A DNA stretch of 64,000 nucleotides, from assembly GCA_017883415.1 (NCBI GenBank), contig JADGNR010000001.1, positions 1-64,000 on the forward strand, in the 5' to 3' direction. Under the pieces are notes generated by a model. It did no database searches. It was not told the origin of the DNA and worked only from the letters and a program-made list of their open reading frames with translations. Origin of the DNA: Bryobacteraceae bacterium. Lineage in GTDB: Bacteria > Acidobacteriota > Terriglobia > Bryobacterales > Bryobacteraceae. The first letter of the stretch is position 1. The number at the start of each line of letters is the position of its first letter. Both the position numbers and the translations under genes were made by a program. Below, in pieces: positions 14,232-17,625 of this stretch.

Positions 14232-14388
14232 CCGCCGCCCATACCTGACCAGTTTGCCACCATCGATCCCGGCTGACGGGCCATTGGCCAGGCCCCTGCG
14301 CCGGCGCCGGCGGGCACGCCCGAACCGGCCGCCGCCTGTCTGTAACGGTAGCCTCCCCGGCTTCACTATCTGCTGAGGAGAAATCACC

Positions 14389-16761
14389 ATGAACGACGAC
14401 AAGACCGGCCGACCTCCATCGCCGGATTCCTACCCGGAAACCAAAGATCAGAACTTCCAGCTTGCGCTCAGAGAACTCCTGGCTGGGTATCAGCCCATCC
14501 TCGAGGAAGAACTGAAACGGGTCAAATCGCCGGAGCAAACGGAGGTGTCGGAGATCCGCGATTGCGAGGAAGAGCTGCAGCTCGCCAATCGCATCTTCGA
14601 GAGATTTGCCGCCGAGAAAGTGGCGCTCAGCTTTCTGCCGGAGGAAGCCCGCAAACTGGCCGGCGAAACTGGCGCCACGCGATGGTGTCTTCTGTACATC
14701 CGCTGTTGCCTGATCTTTGGCTGGCTGGTGTGCCGCGGCCCGCGGAGCTTCAAGGCCTGGTCGTACTATCTGCACCTGTACTGGATCTGCGTCCGCCGCA
14801 TACTGGGAACGCCCGTCGGCACTCCTCCGACGGCGGCCGAGCGTGAAGACTTCGCGTCGCTGGTCAAGTCCCTGGCCGAGGCTTTCAAGCCCTATCTTAC
14901 CGACCAACTGGCGACCGTCGAGTTCTCCGAGGGAATCCCCGGGGAAGTGCTCGCCGGCACGATCGACTGTTTCACCGGGGAGGCCGAGATCTGCCAGATC
15001 TTCCAGCGCCTGCTGAACACCGGCGCCACACGCGCCCTGTTGGGCGAAGCGGCCTTTAAGGAGCGCACCGGCGATCAGACGTTCTGGTTCTGCCGCTGCT
15101 GGTGCCTCTGTGCGCTCTGCCTGGGCTGCTGCCTGGCGCGCGTCCGCAGCGTGCGGGAGATAAAGCGTTGTCTCGTCTTCTACTCGCGCTGCCTGCGGGA
15201 CTGCTTCCGTCCCTTGATCTGCGATCTTACCAGTCCTGCCAATTGCGTTCAGGAAACCGCATTCCCCGGCGTGGGCGTCTTCCGCGGCGTCGAAATCACG
15301 GGCACTGCCGCGGGAGCGTTTTGCGACCACTATACGCTCGAATGGCGGCAGGGCATCGGTTTATGGCAAAGCGGCGGCATCGTATACCCCGGAGGCGCGG
15401 CCCAAGGCAGTTGTGGTGTTTTTGGCGGCGTCCTGGGATATCTGAAGACCTTTCCGCTGGTCGCTCCGGGACTGGTGGAGATTCGTTTGACGGTCTTCTC
15501 CAGCCAGCCCAATGTGGCTCCGTGCGTCCACACCATCTTCTTCGAGCTCCAGCGCAATCTGGTCTGGATCGAGGGCATCGAGGGCATCAACGCGGCGGTG
15601 CCGCCCGGCGTGTTCGATCCCTCGGCGCAGTTGGTGGATGGCGCGGGAAACGTGCGCTCCTTCGGCTCGGCGTTGCGCGTATTCGGGTCCGCCAGCGTGG
15701 GTGGCTGCAATGGACAGAACATCAAACGCTACACCCTCAGCTACCAGCAGGGCTTCACCACCACGACCGCCGGAGCTTGGACCCAGTTCTGGGAGGTCGA
15801 CTACAATACTCCGTTCCAGATCGACACCACGTTGAATCAGATCTTTCAAGGGGTGCTGACCAGCCAGTGGGAGGAGATGCCGTTTTGCTATGTCAACCCG
15901 CTCCCGTCTCCCCATGTACAGTGCGATGTCGCCAGCGATTATCTGAGCGAAGTGTATTGGAGCACGCAGGTTCCAGGGGGCCCCTTTGCCCTGCAATTTC
16001 CGGATCCTCCCGGACCGTATCCCGACGCACCGGCGGGCACCTGGAATTCCGCGCCCCTTGCGCTGCCCAACTGCCAAAGCGGCCCGTACACCTTGCGGCT
16101 CACGGTGGAGGACACCGGTGGCAACAAAACCGACGATCTCCAGCAGGTCTGGTTCGATAACAAGAACATTTACGGCGAGATTTCACAGATCAGCTCGGTT
16201 CCAGCCTGCACCACCATCGAGCTGTCCAGCTTCTCCGGGAATTCACCCGATTGCGGTAAGGCCTGGCCCGCGCCGCTGTTGGGCATCGCCTACGATGAAT
16301 ACATTCTGGAGGGGAACACCACCGCCCCCAGCGACAACTTTGGAGGATATTCGCTCGAGATCTACAAGGCGGGCGGCAGTTGGCACAGCATTCCCATTCC
16401 CGGACCGGCAGGGCACATCCCCTGGCCACCGGCCTCGCCGCCGCTGTCCTTCGTCGGGACCAATCGCATCGGCGACCCGGGCGTCCGCTGCGCCAATGCC
16501 GTCCCTCCTCCGGGACCCATCCCGCCCAAGACGGATGGGATCCTGACCATGTTGGATATGCGCCGGCTGGACGCGGTTTGCAACACCAATCCGCTCGAAT
16601 CGGATTTGGTTTTGCAGCGGGGCGAGTGCTGCGGCTTCATTATCCACCTCAGCGTGTGGGATACCTCGGTGTGCCCGAGCCTTGGGGGAGGCCGCCATCA
16701 AGCGGATATTTACTTCCCGTTCTGCATCTGCAACGACCTGCCCAATACGGCCGGAAAATGA
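14389..16761 (+). CDS. Cysteine-rich protein of unknown function with an internal duplication
   Basis: A 790-residue protein with no signal peptide and no family I can name. The N-terminal 60 residues are charged. Two related helical segments follow, about 70-139 and 203-275: the first has WCLLYIRCCLIFGWLVC and a run of aromatics, the second FWFCRCWCLCALCLGCCLA followed by VREIKRCLVFYSRCLRDCF. Cysteines recur every two to four residues, so one helix face would be lined with thiols. From about residue 280 the protein changes to beta-rich domains (VGVFRGVEITGT, LRLTVEDTGG, SLEIYKAGG) resembling Ig/PKD-like folds, with scattered cysteines. The leader GGAGAAATCACC before the ATG recurs before the gene at 17077. 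The next gene starts inside this stop codon (ATGA). Confidence 0.8.
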   Translation: MNDDKTGRPPSPDSYPETKDQNFQLALRELLAGYQPILEEELKRVKSPEQTEVSEIRDCEEELQLANRIFERFAAEKVALSFLPEEARKLAGETGATRWCLLYIRCCLIFGWLVCRGPRSFKAWSYYLHLYWICVRRILGTPVGTPPTAAEREDFASLVKSLAEAFKPYLTDQLATVEFSEGIPGEVLAGTIDCFTGEAEICQIFQRLLNTGATRALLGEAAFKERTGDQTFWFCRCWCLCALCLGCCLARVRSVREIKRCLVFYSRCLRDCFRPLICDLTSPANCVQETAFPGVGVFRGVEITGTAAGAFCDHYTLEWRQGIGLWQSGGIVYPGGAAQGSCGVFGGVLGYLKTFPLVAPGLVEIRLTVFSSQPNVAPCVHTIFFELQRNLVWIEGIEGINAAVPPGVFDPSAQLVDGAGNVRSFGSALRVFGSASVGGCNGQNIKRYTLSYQQGFTTTTAGAWTQFWEVDYNTPFQIDTTLNQIFQGVLTSQWEEMPFCYVNPLPSPHVQCDVASDYLSEVYWSTQVPGGPFALQFPDPPGPYPDAPAGTWNSAPLALPNCQSGPYTLRLTVEDTGGNKTDDLQQVWFDNKNIYGEISQISSVPACTTIELSSFSGNSPDCGKAWPAPLLGIAYDEYILEGNTTAPSDNFGGYSLEIYKAGGSWHSIPIPGPAGHIPWPPASPPLSFVGTNRIGDPGVRCANAVPPPGPIPPKTDGILTMLDMRRLDAVCNTNPLESDLVLQRGECCGFIIHLSVWDTSVCPSLGGGRHQADIYFPFCICNDLPNTAGK

Positions 16762-17114
16762 GCTTGCCGGTTCAATTGGCTCTTGCCGCCCTGGCTGGTT
16801 GGCGGGTAACGCACCTGCTGGCCAGCGAGGACGGCCCGGCCGATCTGATCTATCGCTTGCGGGCGTGGCTGGGAACCAGCTTCCCCGGCAAGCTGATGGA
16901 TTGCTTCTACTGCCTGAGCCTTTGGGTGGCGGCGCCCTTGGCCTGGTTCGTCGCGCACCGGGTTGTGGATGGGGTTCTGACCTGGCTCGCGTTGTCCGGC
17001 GCTATCTGCCTGTTGGAACGCTTGACTCGGGAAACACCCGAGTTACCCAAATTTCATTACGAAGGAGAAATCACCCATGTGCTGCGGCCAGAAAAGGGAC
17101 AACCTCAAGACTGA
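16758..17114 (+). CDS. DUF1360 family membrane protein
   Basis: A 118-residue protein with the DUF1360 pattern: LAALAGWRVTHLLASEDGP near the N-terminus, then FPGKLMDCFYCLSLWVAAPLAWFVAH, a CxxC pair leading into a hydrophobic helix, and a second helix (GVLTWLALSGAICLLERL). The family is small, uncharacterised and membrane-associated. Start ATG overlaps the TGA of the Cys-rich gene, giving translational coupling. Its 3' end overlaps the start of the next gene by 38 bases in another frame. The association with the Cys-rich protein suggests that all three gene products act together. Confidence 0.8.
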   Translation: MSLPVQLALAALAGWRVTHLLASEDGPADLIYRLRAWLGTSFPGKLMDCFYCLSLWVAAPLAWFVAHRVVDGVLTWLALSGAICLLERLTRETPELPKFHYEGEITHVLRPEKGQPQD

Positions 17115-17367
17115 CAATGTGGCCCGGAATCAGACGCTCATGCCAACCCGCCTGCCGGAGCCCCGCCACTCTGTTCCCGCCAACGCTCCGGCGATTGACG
17201 GCCCGCGGGCGATTGCCGTCCGCTACACCGAGACATCCCGCGTTGTCGTCGCGGGTCCAGCCACCGGGCGGCGTTACGAGTTTTCGGCCACGCATCCCTT
17301 ACAGATGGTCGACCCTCGCGATGCGGGTGCGATGTTGAGCACGCGCTTCTTTGCGCGGGAGGCGTGA
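17077..17367 (+). CDS. 96-residue protein, third member of the Cys-rich/DUF1360 cassette
   Basis: Begins MCCGQKRDNLKTDN, so it carries a cysteine pair at the extreme N-terminus. The second half, RAIAVRYTETSRVVVAGPATGRRYEF followed by ATHPLQMVDPRDAGAMLSTRFF (read in pieces), is a small beta-barrel-like pattern that resembles short proteins found near phage-like or cell-surface genes; the resemblance is from memory and weak. A good ribosome site (GAAGGAGAAATCACCC) shares 12 bases with that of the gene at 14389. The coding claim rests on the ribosome site, the overlap with DUF1360 and the position. Its stop directly touches the stop of the convergent YggU gene. Confidence 0.7.
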   Translation: MCCGQKRDNLKTDNVARNQTLMPTRLPEPRHSVPANAPAIDGPRAIAVRYTETSRVVVAGPATGRRYEFSATHPLQMVDPRDAGAMLSTRFFAREA

Positions 17368-17625
17368 TCATCCCAGCAGCCGTTCCAGATCCTGCTGCGG
17401 AATCCCTGCGATCTCCACTACCTTCATTCGCCCGGTAGCGCCGGTCACAATTCGCACGCGCGAGCGCGGCACACCCGCCAGTTCCGCGAAGAAGCGTACG
17501 CACTCCTCGTTGGCCTTGCCATCGACCGGCGGCGCCGCCAGGTCCAGCTTCCAGGCCTCGCCGAGGCGCCCCGCGATCCCCGTCCTCCTGGCGCGCGCAT
17601 GCACCTTTACCGTGATACGCGCCAT
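17368..17625 (-). CDS. DUF167/YggU family protein
   Basis: An 85-residue protein starting MARITVKVHARARRTGIAG, with the family core APPVDGKANEECVRFFAELAGVPRSRV and VTGATGRMKVVEIAG. The PPVDGKAN motif is diagnostic for DUF167. The fold is known; function is not. Its start lies 19 bases inside the end of the upstream ATP-binding protein gene, so both are on one transcript. It converges with the 96-residue gene with zero bases between the stops. Confidence 0.92.
   Translation of the reverse strand: MARITVKVHARARRTGIAGRLGEAWKLDLAAPPVDGKANEECVRFFAELAGVPRSRVRIVTGATGRMKVVEIAGIPQQDLERLLG

Follow-up and report, generated by a model that had tools for sequence, protein, structure and literature searches.

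Conserved DUF1360 and CCG-type small proteins as the constant part of a bacterial gene cassette with an exchangeable large partner

Several described systems come close, in one respect or another, to the three-gene locus considered here. DUF1360 (PF07098, phage phrog_781) is a family of membrane proteins with no assigned function, which appears in one of the open-access papers searched, as a table entry only. In two phages, Microbacterium phage A3Wally and Gordonia phage Sixama, a DUF1360-type gene stands downstream of the terminase gene and immediately before the portal gene (L085:5986-6270 and L086:4998-5291), and neither of the proteins described below as P1 and P3 was seen as its neighbour; DUF1360-type genes of phages are also found at L075-L084. 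Systems of C-terminal sorting, namely type IX CTD, exosortase/PEP-CTERM and sortase/LPXTG, combine diverse large proteins, a common C-terminal element and a constant membrane component; the substrates of type IX CTD, PEP-CTERM and LPXTG systems carry N-terminal signal peptides together with known tags or transpeptidases. Type VI PAAR-RHS operons and extracellular contractile loci form another point of comparison, and copper-storage Csp proteins, which are Cys-lined four-helix bundles, a further one.

The window (the whole stretch of 64,000 nucleotides that was analysed) carries three plus-strand ORFs of 790, 118 and 96 codons' worth of protein, which an earlier note on this DNA had described as tightly linked; the arrangement is as stated, the first two ORFs overlapping by ATGA at 16758-16761 and the last two by 38 bases at 17077-17114. 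The products are named P1 (the 790-aa protein), P2 (the DUF1360 protein) and P3 (the MxCCGQ protein), and the features are collected in Table 1. Judged by comparison of their products, the three ORFs are genes, because each is conserved as a protein across phyla.

Table 1. Positions of the cassette genes, their leaders and the parts of P1 in the window
Feature	Position	Strand	Basis
P1, 790 aa, 36 Cys, large protein of the cassette, no apparent signal peptide	14389..16761	+	homologues, alignment, AlphaFold2
P2, DUF1360 small membrane protein, invariant EDGP and CxxC	16758..17114	+	PF07098 in 22/22 aligned members
P3, 96 aa, MxCCGQ-type, variable Pro-rich linker, small conserved C-terminal domain	17077..17367	+	29-member alignment
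P1 leader GGAGAAATCACC, ribosome site	14377..14388	+	sequence read directly; exact 12-mer
P3 leader GGAGAAATCACC, ribosome site, within P2	17064..17075	+	exact 12-mer; P3 starts inside P2 in 24/30 loci
P1 helical Cys repeat 1 (residues about 17-140)	14437..14808	+	hhalign, AlphaFold2
P1 helical Cys repeat 2 (residues about 149-274), invariant CRCWC.C motif	14833..15210	+	hhalign, invariant Cys lists
P1 tandem Ig-like beta domains	15211..16758	+	AlphaFold2 strands from residue 277, Foldseek, weak Big_3_2 match
P1 C-terminal beta hairpin (residues 735-785)	16591..16743	+	profile scan; HMM and hhalign matches

The leader GGAGAAATCACC had been read as a translation signal shared by P1 and P3. It is exact at both sites and occurs nowhere else in the window (expected number 0), and none of the relatives fetched has the 12-mer; what recurs among them is a GGAG-type ribosome site. 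The leader is therefore a ribosome site and not a conserved signal, and the idea of a 12-base shared control element was rejected. A search of the cassette region for RNA elements gave none, and a promoter scan was uninformative. Convergent with the cassette and abutting the P3 stop lies a small minus-strand gene (17368-17625), DUF167/YggU-like by eye.

P1 combines a Cys-dense helical half with a beta-rich remainder. Twenty of its Cys residues fall within the first 290 positions, and many of the 36 are invariant in the family. The related helical segments first proposed at residues 70-139 and 203-275 do represent a true duplication by profile comparison (hhalign 99.1%, E=1.5e-18, score 107, against a highest score of 17.3 among 20 column shuffles), with repeats longer than proposed, extending over residues about 17-140 and 149-274. 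AlphaFold2 modelled the whole protein with pLDDT 80.6 and pTM 0.61, and the helical half as a 273-aa construct with pLDDT 84 and pTM 0.84; in the whole-protein model, strands forming tandem beta domains begin at residue 277, which confirms the beta-rich C-terminus. Foldseek returned no match of the helical half to solved structures in the PDB (best E 0.35) or to viral models (best E 0.75), and for whole P1 only generic tandem Ig/cadherin-type folds, while Pfam gave a weak Big_3_2 match. The predicted Ig-like domains, of the type found in surface proteins, agree with the earlier suggestion of a cell-surface structure. Inspection and hydropathy revealed no apparent N-terminal signal sequence, and only in some members does the Cys-rich helix at residues 232-250 reach borderline hydrophobicity.

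Assignment of P2 to DUF1360 holds, with a Pfam score of 24.3 bits (cut-off 21) and the CxxC present as reported; all 22 aligned members also match phrog_781, and the P2 of the window has one hydropathy segment over threshold (residues 69-87). P3 does start with MCCG, and its 29-member alignment is invariant at CCG, G60, Y67, F69, D82 and F92; neither Pfam nor PHROG holds a family for it. P3-like C-terminal domains also occur apart from P2 and from any large partner (L109:5826-6182, L110:609-989 and L058:4461-4805), and in two of these the CCG start is missing.

One scan of bacterial genomes found relatives of P1 in 38 loci from several phyla, with best segments 34-66% identical. Two loci (L028 and L035) end at a sequence edge and were excluded, leaving 36 complete ones. 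In 29 of the 36, across phyla, P1 is directly followed by P2 and then P3, which bears out the view of the three genes as a conserved linked unit; P3 is present in 30, L021 having P3 only, and neither gene is found at the remaining six (L005, L010, L012, L025, L026 and L027). No P3 was detected at E<0.01 anywhere in seven P1 genomes (L005, L010, L012, L025-L028). The gaps between P1 and P2 are mostly below 45 bases, and the apparent conservation of the P2 tail partly reflects overlapping coding, because in 24 of 30 loci the start of P3 lies within P2. There is no fourth gene common to the P1 loci. Additional cassettes were found in genomes G316 and G649.

The cassette is rare, P1 being present in 2 of 297 Acidobacteriota genomes in a phylum-wide sample. 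The P1 tree, made by a quick method and with some forks open, mixes phyla, its starred branches forcing at least five changes for Pseudomonadota and at least four for Acidobacteriota, and therefore suggests horizontal spread of the cassette among phyla. P1 was found in no plasmid, phage record or viral contig searched, and P3 relatives in no plasmid or viral contig; a phage or plasmid origin was rejected on these grounds. Cultured hosts of P1 are Pelomonas sp. Root1444, Albitalea terrae, Neoroseomonas soli and Massilia glaciei. Around these loci two further observations can be recorded. In a Burkholderiales genome a 445-aa protein is encoded directly downstream of P3 (L073:61-1398, minus strand). 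Proteases without an evident signal peptide, of protealysin-type M4, papain-like C1 and, by eye, S1-like kinds, recur near P1 or P2-P3 loci (L027:1-1026, L101:8773-9957, L104:5319-5999, L104:4221-5204, L100:8266-8815 and L034:11092-12556).

A search of genomes with the P3 profile recovered P2+P3 pairs without P1. In every one of the nine P1-less loci with an intact pair and upstream sequence present (L054-L057, L105-L108 and L111, from Acidobacteriota, Verrucomicrobiota, Gemmatimonadota and Burkholderiales), another large ORF of 463-801 aa stands immediately upstream, that of L055 being cut at the contig end and that of L054 apparently split from a short upstream ORF. BLAST separates these stand-ins into three groups or more: L106, L108 and L111 with the partly related L055, L057 and L107; L056; and L105. 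The L054 partner was placed with L106, L108 and L111 by eye. None of the nine has an obvious signal sequence by inspection and hydropathy, and all lack the helical Cys domain of P1 and have fewer Cys (7-27), with P2 and P3 kept. Three further P3 cases are incomplete: the contig of L103 starts within P2, the P2-P3 pair of L104 is broken, and in L102 P3 is decayed.

At the level of sequence, then, the constant part of the cassette is P2+P3 plus some large protein, and P1 is one of several partners. The notion that the three products act together is upheld as far as the conserved linkage goes, and is to be amended in that P1 is not an essential partner, since P2+P3 accompany other large proteins. 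A thiol-rich complex as the defining feature of the locus is not borne out, because the pair occurs with these other proteins and P1 occurs in seven genomes without any P3.

Some of the partners resemble P1 at their C-terminal ends. All loci together supplied 254 ORFs of 400 aa or longer, which were scanned with a profile of P1 residues 735-785, the last fifty or so. P1 proteins scored 60-95 bits, followed only by L056 (14.9), L111 (14.1), L106 (13.9) and L108 (12.2), against 1.2 bits for the best unlinked protein and 4.1 for the best of 450 shuffles; all four matches lie near the C-terminal end, with HMM and hhalign matches at the same terminal position. L106, L108 and L111 are one family, and the clear hairpin matches thus come from two independent families only. 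Five of the nine partners score too low (L054, L055, L057, L105 and L107), L054 and L055 being next among the linked ORFs and within noise. A hairpin common to P1 and two independent partner families is supported by these comparisons, and its presence in the remaining partners is no more than suggested. The hairpin is likewise retained in P1 proteins from loci that lack P2 and P3.

It is attractive to hypothesize that the cassette is a horizontally spread handling module, in which a constant P2+P3 pair serves a swappable large partner, probably recognised by its C-terminus; we rate this a little short of an even chance. As we infer them, the direct binding, handling role, location and Cys chemistry of the cassette proteins would fit together as follows. 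P2, the small membrane protein, and P3, a soluble and adaptor-like protein with an N-terminal CCGQ tag, would form the constant module, and the large partner, of which P1 is one, would be synthesised in the cytoplasm, no signal peptide being apparent. P3 would bind the C-terminus of the partner and deliver it to P2 at the inner membrane, where docking, assembly or export would follow. In the case of P1, the Cys-rich helices might then bind metal or form disulfides, and the Ig-like domains would make an extended structure, probably at the surface or extracellular. Three findings speak against this reading: P1 keeps its C-terminus in the seven genomes without P3, so P2+P3 are not always needed; the C-terminal profile scores too low in five of the nine partners, its clear matches coming from two families only; and DUF1360 is a broad family, present also in phages, so its presence does not specify function. 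The P1-only genomes, in which P1 does without the pair, keep our confidence below one half.

A bolder form of the handling hypothesis, which we consider improbable though worth stating, is that P2+P3 are the core of an unrecognised, horizontally spread Gram-negative export or display pathway for large folded cargo without signal peptides, recognised by its C-terminal hairpin, with P1-type proteins as one cargo class. If the pair does handle interchangeable signal-less proteins, environmental bacteria of several phyla would have an undescribed means of bringing large proteins to the envelope or beyond it. DUF1360, a conserved membrane family long without assignment, gains a defined partner set and a testable role. 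Since cultured hosts exist, the idea is directly testable.

Other readings of the same loci were weighed against the handling module. In one of them the large protein would be the cargo of a type VI or extracellular contractile injection apparatus, or a part attached to its spike, and P3 and P2 would load it; the absence of signal peptides would then be accounted for. In genome G677 (L103:3-4136 with L112) a type VI locus with TssK contains, in this order, the end of P2, P3, a PAAR gene that overlaps P3, and an RHS gene (PAAR, RHS and TssK confirmed by Pfam). In G644, of NC10 (L102:5076-10905 with L113), the neighbour of P3 is an extracellular-type locus encoding sheath, tube and an eCIS_core protein, a linkage that involves a decayed P3 only. 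A type VI sheath gene or an extracellular-type sheath match is present in 28 of 38 P1 genomes, by our own count and with no matched background, and in Burkholderiales a match to the extracellular-type sheath is seen in five of the eight P1 genomes, compared with 65 of 399 genomes across the order (Fisher p=0.005); P1 genomes may, on the other hand, simply be larger. Neither sheath was found in 10 of the 38, cultured Pelomonas sp. Root1444 included, many genomes being incomplete, and the surroundings of the other P1 and partner loci examined contain no injection-system genes. Physical linkage to such genes in most loci was accordingly rejected, L103 and the decayed P3 of L102 being the sole cases, and the link to contractile injection, which we think rather unlikely to be the explanation, is a lead that is only suggestive. 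Three observations on the genomes concerned may be added. The decayed P3 of G644 also stands beside a papain-like protease; an NtrC-like regulator upstream in L102 is 73-78% identical to one upstream of the intact P1 cassettes L014 and L101; and the genome of the window itself (G000) has several type VI sheath (TssC) matches on contigs C95, C234 and C525 and none on the contig of the window.

A common layout of immunity genes places a small membrane protein right behind a large one, and P1 and its stand-ins might accordingly be membrane-active toxins with P2 as membrane immunity protein and P3 as adaptor. The large proteins contain segments with abundant W, C and hydrophobic residues, and one genome has PAAR-RHS neighbours; both observations point that way. 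Here, however, the large partner switches from one family to another and P2 and P3 remain the same, the reverse of polymorphic toxins, in which immunity varies with the toxin; P1 is also found without P2 and P3, no toxin family matched in Pfam or NCBIfam, and PADLOC returned nothing, which leaves this reading distinctly improbable. Barely better placed, and still quite unlikely, is a complex in which the P1 helices bind copper, zinc or a cluster and the P2 CxxC and P3 CCG exchange metal or disulfides: the abundant and often invariant Cys of P1 and the invariant motifs of its two neighbours are what one would expect, yet the partners that replace P1 lack its helical Cys domain and P2 and P3 are retained, and P1 matched no metal-binding family or fold. 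Handling of exchangeable partners fits better than a fixed thiol complex because of these same partners. That three unrelated genes are neighbours by chance would be in keeping with P1 and P3 each occurring without the other in some genomes; it is next to impossible given the same adjacent order in 29 of 36 loci across phyla and the overlapping P2 and P3 frames, and the conserved linkage has already refuted it.

The handling module can finally be set beside the systems described at the outset. P2 belongs to DUF1360 and has its EDGP-like segment and CxxC. With type VI and extracellular contractile loci the likeness consists of one P2-P3 pair directly before PAAR-RHS and one P3 remnant at a border; the other cassettes lack such neighbours, and ten P1 genomes lack both sheaths. 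Csp proteins recall P1 only in the idea of a Cys-dense helical bundle, whereas the helical part of P1 is duplicated, fused to Ig-like domains and without a sequence or fold match to solved structures. The resemblance to C-terminal sorting is one of working principle only: a common C-terminal element on diverse substrates is clear in four partners of two families and too weak to call in five, and, in contrast to the sorted substrates, the cassette proteins have no apparent signal peptide; there is no further conserved gene, and the cassette does not qualify as a sortase-type system. Pfam, NCBIfam, PHROGs, PADLOC and PDB sequences hold no usable family for P1 or P3, and limited searches of these libraries and of the open-access literature returned no described system of such composition, in agreement with the earlier note. 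As far as could be found, the combination of P2 with P3 and P1-type proteins is therefore an undescribed set, one that may represent an unrecognised way to handle or display large proteins in soil and water bacteria of several phyla.
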